From: Alphaproteobacteria bacterium
GTDB taxonomy: Bacteria; Pseudomonadota; Alphaproteobacteria; JABAAW01
Direction of reading: 5' to 3'
DNA: 42,519 nt
Assembly: GCA_014237925.1 (NCBI GenBank)
Contig: JABACB010000003.1
Coordinates: 1 to 42,519, forward strand
How positions within the stretch are numbered: position 1 is the first letter of the stretch; each line of letters begins with the position of its first letter. The position numbers and the translations under genes are program-made. Shown one piece after another: positions 33,201 through 36,767 of this stretch. A model generated the notes under the pieces. That model was not told the origin of the DNA. It worked only from the letters and a program-made list of their open reading frames with translations, and did not search any database.

Positions 33201-35381
33201 GGGGACGGCGGCTTGGCGCAGGTATCGCGTGAGCGCACGCAACAACGCGACCTCGCGCCAGTCGAGGCGGCTGATCAGGATGAGACGATTGAACAAATCG
33301 GCGGGCAGCAACCCCTTGTGGATGCGTTGGAAGCAGGCGATGAAACGTTCCGCAAGGTCGTGCGCGTGCGCGGGCGTCGCGCGCGCCTCCAACTGGACGC
33401 GGTAGAGCGTCGCCTGATCGGACGCGCTGTCCGCCTCAAAATTCGCCGCGCCGTTCGCCGCGCCGTTCGCCGCGCCGTTTTTTTGGCTTGCAAGCGAGAG
33501 GTGATAAGGCGTTTCGGTGAGCGTCTTGAACCCGAGCGACTCTAAAATCGGCACGAGGTCGGAGAGCGTAAGCCCGCCGCGCACGCACAGCGAAAGCGCG
33601 TGAGTCTCGCAGCTCTGTTGGGCGCTCTGGTGGCGAAAGGAAAGCGCGACGCCATCATCGCGCGCAAAGCATTCTTCGCAGAGTTGCAAGTCTTGGGCGA
33701 GTTGCGCTTCGACGAATGTCTCGCCGTCTGCTTTCTGTTCCTGCTTTGTTTTCTGTTCCTGCTCTTCTTCCGCTTCTTCCTCTTCCTCCCAGTAGGCGGC
33801 GGGGAAGGCTTTCGCGTAGCGCACGAGCAATGCGGGACAGCGGTCGGACGGGAATGTTGCTTCCAGCGCGGCGGAGACGCGCTCTTCTGGCGAGCGCGCC
33901 GCGTTGCCGAGCGCCGCTTCGATCGCGTGCAGGCTGGCGGCTCCTTTCTCTGCGGGAAGGCTCTTGCGTGCGATGCGGAAGTGGACGCGCGCGAGCGCGT
34001 CCTCGCCGATCATCGCTCCTTCGGTCATCACGCGCGCTTGCAGCTTGCGCGCGAGAATGCGTGCGAAGACGCGCTCCATGCCGACGCCGTAGTTTTGCTT
34101 CGCCATGCAGACGACCGCCGAGAGTTTTCCTTGAGTGCGTAGCAGCAGCAGTTTGACATTGCCGCGCTGTTGGGCTTCGCGCATGTCTTCGATGTGACGG
34201 CAGAGGATGTCGAGGGGGGCTTGCCACAACAGCGAGCGCGGATACAGCTGTAGCAGGTTGCGCACATGGCGAGCTTTTTGCGAACGTGCCACCACGCCGA
34301 GCCGAGCTCCTACGGCGCGCAGCTGGCGGCGCAACAGCGGCACCGATTCGAGCGAGGCGTAGGCGCCTTTCGAGGTAAGCAGTCCTACCAGCACTACGAT
34401 GCTTTCGTCGGAGATTTCTTTGCTCAGCAGTACGTCGATCGGCACGTCGCGGTGGACGAGCGCGTGGCGGTCGGCTTTCAGCATGACGACGCTTTCCGAA
34501 GATGCGCGGAAATCGTCGAACACTTGCTTGGAGACGAAGAGTTCGCACGGCGAGAATCCCGCCTCGCGTCTTTGGTCGAGAATGCCGAGTCCTTCTTTAG
34601 AGGAAGCGCGTCCTTTCTCTTCGCGGGCGAGCCCGAGGAAGGTCATGTTTTCGTCCAGCACCCATTGCAGGAGGTCGATGGCTTCCTGTCGTTCCAGCGT
34701 GGGATTGGCGCGCGAATCGGAGGCGAGGTCGCTTGCGAAGCTCTGTTGCAACTCTTGGGCGTGGCGGTCGATGGCTTCGCGCATGCGCTGCCAGTCCTCG
34801 ACGGCGGCGCGGTTGCGTGCGCACACGCGCTCGACATTGGCTTGAATTTCCTGCTGTCTCGAATCGCTGTCGTCGCCGTGGCATTGGACCAGCACGGCGG
34901 CGAGGTCGTCGTGGCGTTGCTCGCGCGTCAGCGAGGAGCTATCCGAGACGACGCCCTTGAAGAGGTCGCGCGAGGCGACGACGGTGATGAAACGCTGTAC
35001 CGAGAGTCGTTCGCGCGCGAAGTGGTTTGCAAGCGAGCTTGCAAGGAAGGGCATGTTCTCGTGGAGCAACAAAAAGCTGAAGCCTTTCGTTCCTTCGTAG
35101 CTTTTGTCGCTGAGGGCTTTGAGAAAGCGGATGGCGGCGCGGGTTTTGTCGAGCGGTTGGCGCGGCGTTTTGGCAAGCGAGCAGCCGAGACGGAACAAGT
35201 CCGCGGTGTCGCGCACGAAGGTGGCGGCATCGATGCGCGAGAGATCGGAGGAGAGCAGTTCTGCGGTCAGGCGTTCTTGGAAGCGCACGAAGCCTTTGTT
35301 GTCAGGTTCGGCGTTCGAGGCGGCGCGGCATCCTTTCAGGAAGGCGCGGTGTGCGTTGCTGAGCCGGTCGGGGGTAGGCAT
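30282..35381 (-). CDS. gdhB: Large (180-kDa class) NAD-dependent glutamate dehydrogenase
   Basis: Oxidatively deaminates glutamate to 2-oxoglutarate and ammonia, feeding amino-acid carbon into the TCA cycle; a sensible partner for the Aap importer here. 1,699 residues compared with about 1,580-1,620 usually. The N-terminal third is the regulatory ACT-like region. The catalytic part includes FGPVARGGLRWSDR, the lysine-containing VPVGAKGGFVLK, DKGTATFSDIAN, GGSLGYDHKQMGIT, GDMGGDVFGNGML and GEGANLGMTQAGRVEF. Inserts explain the size: an acidic Glu/Gln/Lys run, a GAAN repeat (33442-33477), a DLTQ repeat (30793-30828) and a Lys/Ser/Pro tail. The 561 bp upstream hold only repeats. Confidence 0.97.
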   Translation of the reverse strand: MPTPDRLSNAHRAFLKGCRAASNAEPDNKGFVRFQERLTAELLSSDLSRIDAATFVRDTADLFRLGCSLAKTPRQPLDKTRAAIRFLKALSDKSYEGTKGFSFLLLHENMPFLASSLANHFARERLSVQRFITVVASRDLFKGVVSDSSSLTREQRHDDLAAVLVQCHGDDSDSRQQEIQANVERVCARNRAAVEDWQRMREAIDRHAQELQQSFASDLASDSRANPTLERQEAIDLLQWVLDENMTFLGLAREEKGRASSKEGLGILDQRREAGFSPCELFVSKQVFDDFRASSESVVMLKADRHALVHRDVPIDVLLSKEISDESIVVLVGLLTSKGAYASLESVPLLRRQLRAVGARLGVVARSQKARHVRNLLQLYPRSLLWQAPLDILCRHIEDMREAQQRGNVKLLLLRTQGKLSAVVCMAKQNYGVGMERVFARILARKLQARVMTEGAMIGEDALARVHFRIARKSLPAEKGAASLHAIEAALGNAARSPEERVSAALEATFPSDRCPALLVRYAKAFPAAYWEEEEEAEEEQEQKTKQEQKADGETFVEAQLAQDLQLCEECFARDDGVALSFRHQSAQQSCETHALSLCVRGGLTLSDLVPILESLGFKTLTETPYHLSLASQKNGAANGAANGAANFEADSASDQATLYRVQLEARATPAHAHDLAERFIACFQRIHKGLLPADLFNRLILISRLDWREVALLRALTRYLRQAAVPFSQQLIAEALARSPAIAESLVLLFKARLDPSHAEGSQDVSQDVVDRHHASIEERLATVASREDDRIVRLLRQTIDAIARSNYFHDNDATSETLLSFKLFSDRLDFLPSPRPWREIFVSAADFEAVHLRFGPVARGGLRWSDRIHDFRTEILGLVKAQRVKNAVIVPVGAKGGFVLKSPAPDPKVRQQQGIACYKSFIAAMLDISDNLHDGKAVPPARTRRWDGDDTYLVVAADKGTATFSDIANDIAVAKGYWLQDAFASGGSLGYDHKQMGITSRGAWECVCAHFREARIDRNKPFAAVAVGDMGGDVFGNGMLYSEQIALIAAFNHKHIFLDPSPDAPASYKERRRLFADPANAGWDNYNTALISQGGGIFLRSAKTIPLSKEARTRFDIDTASLPPDALIKKILQARTDLLWFGGIGTFVKAARENNADIGDHANDSTRVSGADLRTKVIGEGANLGMTQAGRVEFALKGGRCNMDAIDNSAGVDCSDHEVNIKILLALAERAGKIDEQRRQKILVSMTDDIARDVLSNNYRQSQALSLMESLGLRNIERQRLLIRDLVREAGLERKLEELPNEEEIDRRRDEKKALTRPELSVLLCYTKNALYEKVLLSDLPDDPRLFPLLRDYFPPKLREEFLDDIRKHPLRREIVATRLTSLTVDHLGASFLAEVRRETGASTVDIARAAFAVMQLFSLHSLWSRIDALDDKIAAPRATRMRYETQRMLFRLSAWFLHRAIDLSSLDAVQQRFEASLKDLERLPQRLPSYFQDEFQERATIFAVHEGDEATDAAGAQDLTQDLTQDLARDLALLKLRSTFCDIALLAEKSNAKAEIVGRCYYAVSEKFGFDRLRTTLDRMQGSADPWQQRALANAIDDLWEMQGFFTEQALNNQHQATNTDKNLSEVSVQTPEKLVEKWFEDNSKAFERLMPLLQEVRGSLRLPMVMVLMRTFHQIAAALSVAKSAKSKSKPNPKG
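30793..30828 (-). repeat. 12-bp in-frame repeat in gdhB (C-terminal region)
   Basis: AAGTCTTGAGTC at 30793 and 30805 and a diverged third copy at 30817, encoding DLTQ units. Confidence 0.87.
33442..33477 (-). repeat. 12-bp in-frame repeat in gdhB (N-terminal region)
   Basis: Three exact copies of TTCGCCGCGCCG at 33442, 33454 and 33466, encoding GAAN three times. Confidence 0.93.
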
Positions 35382-35406
35382 ATGGCGGGGTTATCCTCGC
35401 GGTGTG

Positions 35407-35572
35407 CGTTGAGGGATCATGACATCCCTTGCGGAAACCGAGCGAGACAAGAAGCTCTGGAATCTCTGTGAAGGGGAATGGAGAGGAGGCGTTGAGAGGT
35501 CATGGCATTCTTTGCGAAAACCGAGCGAGACGAGAATCTCTGGAATCTCTGTGAAGGGAGAGGGAGAGGAGG
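35407..35572. repeat. 83-bp tandem duplication upstream of gdhB
   Basis: Two head-to-tail copies (35407-35489 and 35490-35572) that differ at a modest number of positions; both begin CGTTGAG and end GAGAGGAGG and share ACCGAGCGAGAC and CTCTGGAATCTCTGTGAAGG. Weaker relatives occur around 35703-35775 and 35897-35950. The length is not a multiple of three. The first copy ends about 25 bp from the gdhB start, on its upstream side. Confidence 0.88.
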
Positions 35573-35594
35573 CAGTTTCCATGACAATACCAAA

Positions 35595-35657
35595 GCATGT
35601 CTGTTGCGCGAGCGTGTGCCACCCGAAAGGCACGAACGCGAACGCAGCAGACAATGC
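35595..35657. repeat. Interspersed hairpin element, copy A
   Basis: Imperfect palindrome of about 60 bases: outer arms TGTCTG and CAGACA (extended by GCAT/ATGC), inner arms GTGCC and GGCAC, with small internal loops. Its 56-base core recurs at 35800-35855 with a single base difference. Followed by a 13-bp direct repeat (GTGGAGCTGCGTT twice). Confidence 0.85.
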
Positions 35658-35797
35658 GATCTGCATTGTGGAGCTGCGTTGTGGAGCTGCGTTGTCTTTT
35701 GCGTCCATGAAACGCGAGACGAAACTCTGACATCTCTGCGACGAGAAAAAATGGGAAATCTCGTTTTCATCACGCGCCTTCTGCCTTGAAAGGAGCG

Positions 35798-35857
35798 ATT
35801 GTCTGTTGCGCGAGCGTGTGCCACCCAAAAGGCACGAACGCGAACGCAGCAGACAAT
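35798..35857. repeat. Interspersed hairpin element, copy B
   Basis: Same palindrome as copy A in direct orientation, 202 bp away, outer arms ATTGTCTG and CAGACAAT perfect. One difference from A in the terminal loop. Confidence 0.85.
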
Positions 35858-35942
35858 TTGATCTGCAATTCGATCTGCTCGATTTGCTCGATCTGCATTG
35901 TGACATCTCTGTAAGGGGGAAAATGGGGAGGTTCGTTTTCCA

Positions 35943-36767
35943 TCACGCGCTCTGGTGGAGTTTGTCTTCGACGAGCAAGATGAAAGCCTTCACAAAGGTC
36001 GAGGAGGTGTTTCCTTGCGGTAGCGCTTCCAGCTCGTCGGTCGAAACGACAACATCGGCAAGATCTTCGTAACGCGCACGGCGATACTCGATGGCTTTGG
36101 GAAAGACGAAGCGCAAAAAGTCGTCGGGAACGACCTCCTTCTGCTCGATCGATCCTTGCTCGACCGATCCTTGCTCTCGATACTCTTCCAACCAGCCGTC
36201 AAAGCAACTCCTATCATAGACCATCGGCTTGGGACGCTCCATTTGCCTTTGCAACAGAATCCTTTCCTCCTGCTCGCTACAGGCAAGATAGACGATGCAG
36301 GCATGCTCGCGTATTTCTTGGTAGAGAGGATCTTTTTTGCTCTTGAGAACTTCGCAAAAACTGCCCGTCGTGTCGTAGAGAATCGGGCAAGAAAACCTAG
36401 GGTGTTCTTCACAAGCACTACGCAAAAGACGAGGCAGCGCTCTCAAATCTTCCTCCTCCGCGTCGCTGTAGAGTTTCTGCCTCCTAAAGAATTTCTCGCT
36501 TGTCTGCTCCCCTTCAAATTTGCCGACATATTCTGCCAAAAGGTCGACAGGCTCCTTAGAAGCTAACTCTGTATTCGACAATTCTCCTTTGTCTTTAAGA
36601 CGAAAGAAAATCTCGTTGTCCGCAGAAATATAAAGAAAAACCCCGCTTTCGCGCATCTTTCGCCGAGCCTCGTTCCAAGTCGTCTTCTCTCCGTATTTTT
36701 TCGCGTTCGTCGTCTTGCCGACACCCGACATGCCAATCAAGACGATCGCCGCGAAAGAAGACTTCAT
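35943..36767 (-). CDS. P-loop nucleotide-binding protein of unknown function
   Basis: 274 residues. A Walker A motif GMSGVGKTT at residues 12-20 follows a short hydrophobic strand, as in shikimate-kinase-like and other small P-loop kinases. A later segment CPILYDTTGSF resembles a Walker B-like strand, and ILLQRQMERPKPMVYDRSCFDGWLEEY looks like a lid or substrate region. No membrane segment or DNA-binding motif is visible. It follows the reductase gene by 13 bp and is probably co-transcribed with it. I cannot assign a substrate; a small-molecule kinase or a stand-alone ATPase are both possible. The sequence between Walker A and B is unusually long for shikimate kinase. Confidence 0.75.
   Translation of the reverse strand: MKSSFAAIVLIGMSGVGKTTNAKKYGEKTTWNEARRKMRESGVFLYISADNEIFFRLKDKGELSNTELASKEPVDLLAEYVGKFEGEQTSEKFFRRQKLYSDAEEEDLRALPRLLRSACEEHPRFSCPILYDTTGSFCEVLKSKKDPLYQEIREHACIVYLACSEQEERILLQRQMERPKPMVYDRSCFDGWLEEYREQGSVEQGSIEQKEVVPDDFLRFVFPKAIEYRRARYEDLADVVVSTDELEALPQGNTSSTFVKAFILLVEDKLHQSA

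Follow-up and report, generated by a model that had tools for sequence, protein, structure and literature searches.

A dispersed extragenic hairpin family and a locally repeated 83-bp unit in the gap upstream of gdhB of an alphaproteobacterium

The non-coding gap upstream of gdhB

The window analysed here, a stretch of 42,519 nt from a MAG, carries gdhB and a co-directional upstream ORF for a 274-aa protein, separated by a gap filled with repeats (Table 1). Both flanking genes scored strongly positive in an in-frame hexamer coding model (trained on the sampled loci, with gene calls from a simple model of our own). The gap itself was ruled out as coding DNA, including a 171-aa minus-strand ORF at 35391-35906, which had strongly negative scores and no Pfam match; in the species alignment of the conserved unit stretch, an excess of differences at third positions was not clear in any frame. 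As a side observation, the 274-aa protein matched no Pfam family, and its first 30 residues weakly match nucleotide-binding kinases in NCBIfam.

Table 1. Features of the gdhB locus (positions in the window) and loci with palindrome mosaics (given as locus:positions)
Feature	Position	Strand	Remarks
gdhB, large NAD-glutamate dehydrogenase, 1699 aa	30282..35381	-	PF05088 (E 4.5e-226), PF21074, other GDH domains
Non-coding gap, 561 bp	35382..35942	.	every ORF inside has a negative coding score
83-bp unit 1, gdhB-proximal	35406..35488	-	87% identical to unit 2; ~60 nt align to the single G002 unit
83-bp unit 2	35489..35571	-	best match to the single G002 unit, core 38/51 identical
Hairpin A, one member of the dispersed palindrome family	35598..35654	+	covariance model 81.3 bits, E 2.4e-23 (rough)
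Diverged unit 3	35699..35777 (approx.)	-	aligned to the other units
Hairpin B, second family copy	35800..35856	+	covariance model 78.8 bits, E 1.6e-22 (rough)
Diverged unit 4, without the CTCGTCTCGC half	35901..35950 (approx.)	-	extends into the upstream ORF by its final 8 bases
274-aa ORF without a Pfam family, upstream of gdhB	35943..36767	-	adjoins gdhB in G002 and G001; near gdhB in G005
Mosaic loci	L099:3720-3940, L084:3200-3400, L071:3570-3720, L068:3890-4050
Further mosaic loci	L102:3060-3240, L081:1-200, L168:5500-6300 (G001)

The modular order read from the sequence in the initial annotation (two tandem 83-bp units, hairpin A, unit 3, hairpin B, unit 4) is real, as are the gap length of exactly 561 bp and the tandem pair itself. 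Units 3 and 4 align with each other and with units 1 and 2 above all of 300 shuffles. The repeated core was thought to recur in all four units, which holds for the first three: AGAGAT-N2-CAGAG is exact in units 1–3 and has two mismatches in unit 4, and the second motif of the core, present with 0–1 mismatch in units 1–3, is missing from unit 4. Searches with Rfam covariance models over 35300-36050 gave no riboswitch, leader or sRNA match up to E = 1, and further Rfam searches returned nothing convincing for the repeats. A sigma-70 promoter scan found none in the gap, the 83-bp unit included, and a terminator consensus scan found none at the window hairpins and one chance-level match away from them.

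How old is the 83-bp unit? Used as the query against the whole assembly, the tandem units found only themselves and chance-level matches, and thus are not dispersed. In the sister species G002, whose GdhB is 88% identical to that of the window over its N-terminal part, the corresponding gap of ~270 bp contains one unit-like block and no hairpin, and the ~120-bp gap of the congener G001 contains neither. Because the one copy in G002 is hairpin-free, the unit is best explained as an old gdhB-upstream sequence that would have been amplified locally. As the main piece of the gap that can be aligned between the species, it is a candidate promoter or operator, perhaps. The succession of a hairpin and a decayed unit occurs twice in the window (A with unit 3, B with unit 4), suggesting duplication of a segment made up of one hairpin and one unit; the assembly being a MAG, a tandem repeat may also be misassembled. 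The repeat cluster as a whole would be either specific to the species of the window or lost in G002. In G002 (L108), several ~15-bp tandem repeats (AGTTACCTCTCTATC), none of which occur in the window, lie just upstream of position 1501, the gdhB start.

A hairpin family dispersed between genes

Hairpins A and B share a core of 57 bases (not 56, as first counted), in the same orientation and 202 bp apart, with one differing base in the loop, and each has a predicted fold energy of about -33 kcal/mol. Hairpin A is built from GTCTGTTGCG, a tandem G.A internal loop, a GCGT-GTGCC stem, an 8-nt loop and a GA bulge. The GCAAC/GTTGC arms raised the possibility of an integron attC site, which was dismissed on visual comparison since they do not fit RYYYAAC/GTTRRRY.

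A search of the whole assembly with the gap as query returned many matches, all of them to the hairpin. Covariance models built first from 14 and then from 42 copies agree on ~41 distinct places in the own genome (1.97 Mb, 86% complete) at E<=0.001 with strands merged, these E-values being rough since they come from a short calibration. Hence, the initial suggestion of a dispersed extragenic palindromic family applies to the hairpins and fails for the 83-bp unit, which is found nowhere else in the assembly and is single-copy in G002. On the best-scoring strand, the family consensus reads GTCTGTTGCGC-GA-GCGC-GTGC-YAYYNAAAAA-GCAC-AA-GCGC-GA-GCGCAACAGAC. This element of ~62 nt and 23 pairs comprises an outer stem, a tandem G.A internal loop, an inner stem and a 4-bp apical stem (GTGC/GCAC or, in a variant, GCGC/GCGC) that closes a loop of 8–10 nt, A-rich on its 3′ side, with a 2-nt purine bulge (AA/GA) on the 3′ side of the stem.

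Conservation is concentrated in the apical stem, the A-rich side of the loop and the bulge (loop A's and bulge A at least 90% conserved), while the outer stem drifts yet stays paired. Both sides have changed in 16 of the 23 pairs, and the covariation score of 0.246 compares with 0.135 for column shuffles and 0.03–0.09 for slid partners. Such covariation can arise through selection on a fold or through templated repair of quasi-palindromes. The conservation of unpaired bases, however, favours recognition of a fold, so that the folded hairpin may be what is recognised.

With the covariance model, ~11 family places were found in G002. One G002 contig matches a contig from 'Alphaproteobacteria bacterium isolate bin109s' with identical sequence, which assigns the genus to the Alphaproteobacteria. 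G001 has a single locus with three tandem copies and G004 has one copy, both differing from the window's species in the outer sequence and sharing the apical stem and the AA bulge; the part of G003 that was sampled gave no family match, nor did plasmids, phages and viral contigs. Among 289 genomes of the class, convincing matches were confined to the genus, and the family is thus almost absent from the class outside it. Matches in the distant genomes G005, G074 and G126 look like chance.

Scored in the own genome, 38 of 40 copies are intergenic, compared with an intergenic share of 17% of the sampled DNA. Half of the 28 distinct gaps that bear copies are convergent (14/28), whereas among the remaining gaps of 60 bp or more the count is 10 of 70 (Fisher p=0.0005); for these context statistics, loci were picked for carrying copies and genes were called with our simple model. 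Copies in co-directional gaps are unbiased in strand (same as the genes in 7, opposite in 10). Where one gap holds two copies, these are always in direct orientation and often have duplicated flanks, pointing to local duplication.

Orthologous gaps and palindrome mosaics

At four loci (L094/L099, L084/L102, L075/L105 and L095/L101) the orthologous gap carries a copy in both species, and the family therefore predates the species split. At two further loci the G002 gap is without a hairpin, a run of N lying in one of those gaps. Neither a clean empty site nor a target duplication was found at the orthologous gaps, which are rewritten throughout. In one orthologous convergent gap (L095:870-1025 and L101:3770-3962), the outer stem is wholly different between the species, yet paired in each, and the flank GTCACGCGTAACC stands inverted on the other side, amounting to an inversion across the hairpin.

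Separately, we observed that further palindromes (GCGCACTGCGTGCGC; GCGGGGGAACTGCGTCCCCCCACACCCCCC; GCGTGCGCTAGCGCACGC), arranged as an ordered mosaic, are often found ahead of the hairpin, with arms that vary and stay palindromic. This mosaic, present in three species of the genus (Table 1), constitutes another dispersed repeat family. When GCGCGCNCCTTAAAAAGCGC was searched for as a possible second dispersed motif, no more than 6 places, weakly defined, came up. At L168:5600-6281 (G001:C66), mosaic plus hairpin form three direct tandem copies with a period of ~280–300 bp beside a tRNA gene. The BIMEs of enterobacteria are ordered mosaics of several palindromes, too. Like in BIMEs, our hairpin ends such a mosaic at some loci, as its last module; unlike in BIMEs, the motifs are different ones and the gdhB gap lacks a mosaic. 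A more far-reaching reading, which we consider unlikely, takes the apical bulged stem-loop (GYGC, A-rich loop, GCRC, AA bulge) as a hairpin that serves for recognition throughout the genus and forms the end module of an ordered cassette of several palindromes. If true, this cassette would be a new kind of RAYT-less mobile or mRNA-end element, read by an enzyme or an RNA-binding protein.

Nature and possible origin of the repeats

What kind of element is the hairpin? The initial annotation offered a structured leader controlling glutamate dehydrogenase, that is, hairpins in the gdhB 5′ UTR acting as an attenuator that responds to a metabolite or protein. In line with this, the hairpins lie between gdhB and a co-directional upstream gene, their folds are stable, and the core of the 83-bp unit makes up the main stretch over which the gaps of the two species can be aligned. 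However, copies of the hairpin occur at ~40 unrelated places, they show no strand preference relative to co-directional neighbours, they are absent upstream of gdhB in both G002 and G001, and Rfam has no match for them; for the hairpins, the leader reading is largely refuted and we regard it as highly improbable. Alternatively, the family could consist of bidirectional intrinsic terminators between genes, as might be expected from long, GC-rich stems enriched in convergent gaps, and clear T-tracts do end a few copies (L085, L100 and L101). Runs of at least four T, counted on both strands, lie close to 14 of 50 copies, though, against 23% at random intergenic places; since these runs are not enriched, intrinsic termination is not a general role of the family. 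Neither window hairpin has a T-tract, and the consensus scan was negative there. On this evidence a terminator family appears very unlikely.

More general modes of spread have to be weighed as well. A miniature transposable element (MITE) or REPtron unit that the transposase of an IS mobilises in trans would account for a family that is dispersed, palindromic, lineage-specific and patchy between sister species. Against it stand the lack of a match to PF01797 (Y1/RAYT transposase), the sole transposase family searched, in the 86%-complete genome (control genomes matched), the position of the most variable sequence at the outer ends, unlike terminal inverted repeats, and the lack of a visible target duplication, with orthologous gaps too rearranged to present a clean empty site. 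Taken together, such a unit is doubtful, and the miniature mobile element nested in itself, as proposed from the sequence at the outset, finds no backing either: no Y1/RAYT transposase was found, no fixed terminus or target duplication was seen, and copies that share a gap always have the same orientation. A purely mutational origin, free of recognition or function, in which template switching during replication keeps the arms complementary and multiplies palindromes locally, is consistent with same-gap repeats that are all direct, with outer stems replaced wholesale yet paired, and with the inverted flanks at L095/L101. Yet it leaves unexplained both the ~40 scattered copies and a loop and bulge conserved in four congeners, and we think it rather improbable.

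Known palindrome families offer a closer comparison. The CGTC-tagged REPs of Alphaproteobacteria have stems of 8–9 bp, loops of 4–5 nt, an unpaired CGTC/TGTC tag and a CCA tail, form mostly head-to-head dimers and have no associated transposase reported (PMC3733652). Like these, the hairpins are alphaproteobacterial extragenic palindromes that number in the tens, favour convergent and unidirectional gaps and have no associated transposase found; unlike these, they measure ~62 nt with 23 pairs, contain a bulge and an internal loop, and repeat directly within a gap instead of head-to-head (PMC3733652). Their TGTC columns fall inside the paired outer stem, where the CGTC REPs have an unpaired tag. 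With GTAG REPs, or REPtrons with their RAYT, they have in common that they are dispersed imperfect hairpins between genes, whereas the consensus is without a GTAG tag and the genome without a RAYT match (PMC3733652). The Rickettsia palindromic elements (RPEs), palindromic repeats of Alphaproteobacteria as well, differ in being 105–146 bp long and often in frame inside genes, our hairpins being almost all intergenic (PMC2229807). The family thus comprises a single imperfect palindrome dispersed in many copies, located outside genes with a bias to convergent gaps, as in the broad definition of REPs, and it lacks the marks of CGTC and GTAG REPs, RPEs and terminators. It is therefore regarded as a new family within an established kind of element, repetitive extragenic palindromes, set apart from CGTC and GTAG REPs and from RPEs by their published descriptions.

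Overall, we consider it likely that two unrelated repeats of different origin are piled up in the gdhB gap, the hairpins belonging to a lineage-specific, REP-like family of extragenic palindromes that spread and was then duplicated in place. The family would have spread through intergenic DNA, mostly between the 3′ ends of genes, in the ancestor of the species and its sister, and would multiply locally through direct duplication. A mobilising or processing enzyme may recognise the bulged hairpin as folded single-stranded DNA or RNA. The 83-bp units, in turn, would go back to one sequence in front of gdhB, conserved in part, which was amplified along with the hairpins drawn into the duplication, the copies decaying afterwards. 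Any effect on neighbouring genes would probably be exerted at mRNA ends, through stability or the insulation of convergent genes, rather than as a gdhB-specific switch.

For a poorly known genus of Alphaproteobacteria, these repeats provide a palindrome family that has a bulge, no tag and no transposase partner found, along with a case in which sequence in front of a metabolic gene was recently amplified on the spot and can be compared with a sister species. Dispersed repeats combined with local duplication can mimic a structured 'leader', which calls for caution when regulatory RNAs are called from one genome. If loop and bulge are truly recognised, the hairpin family would provide a test case for how RAYT-less REPs spread.
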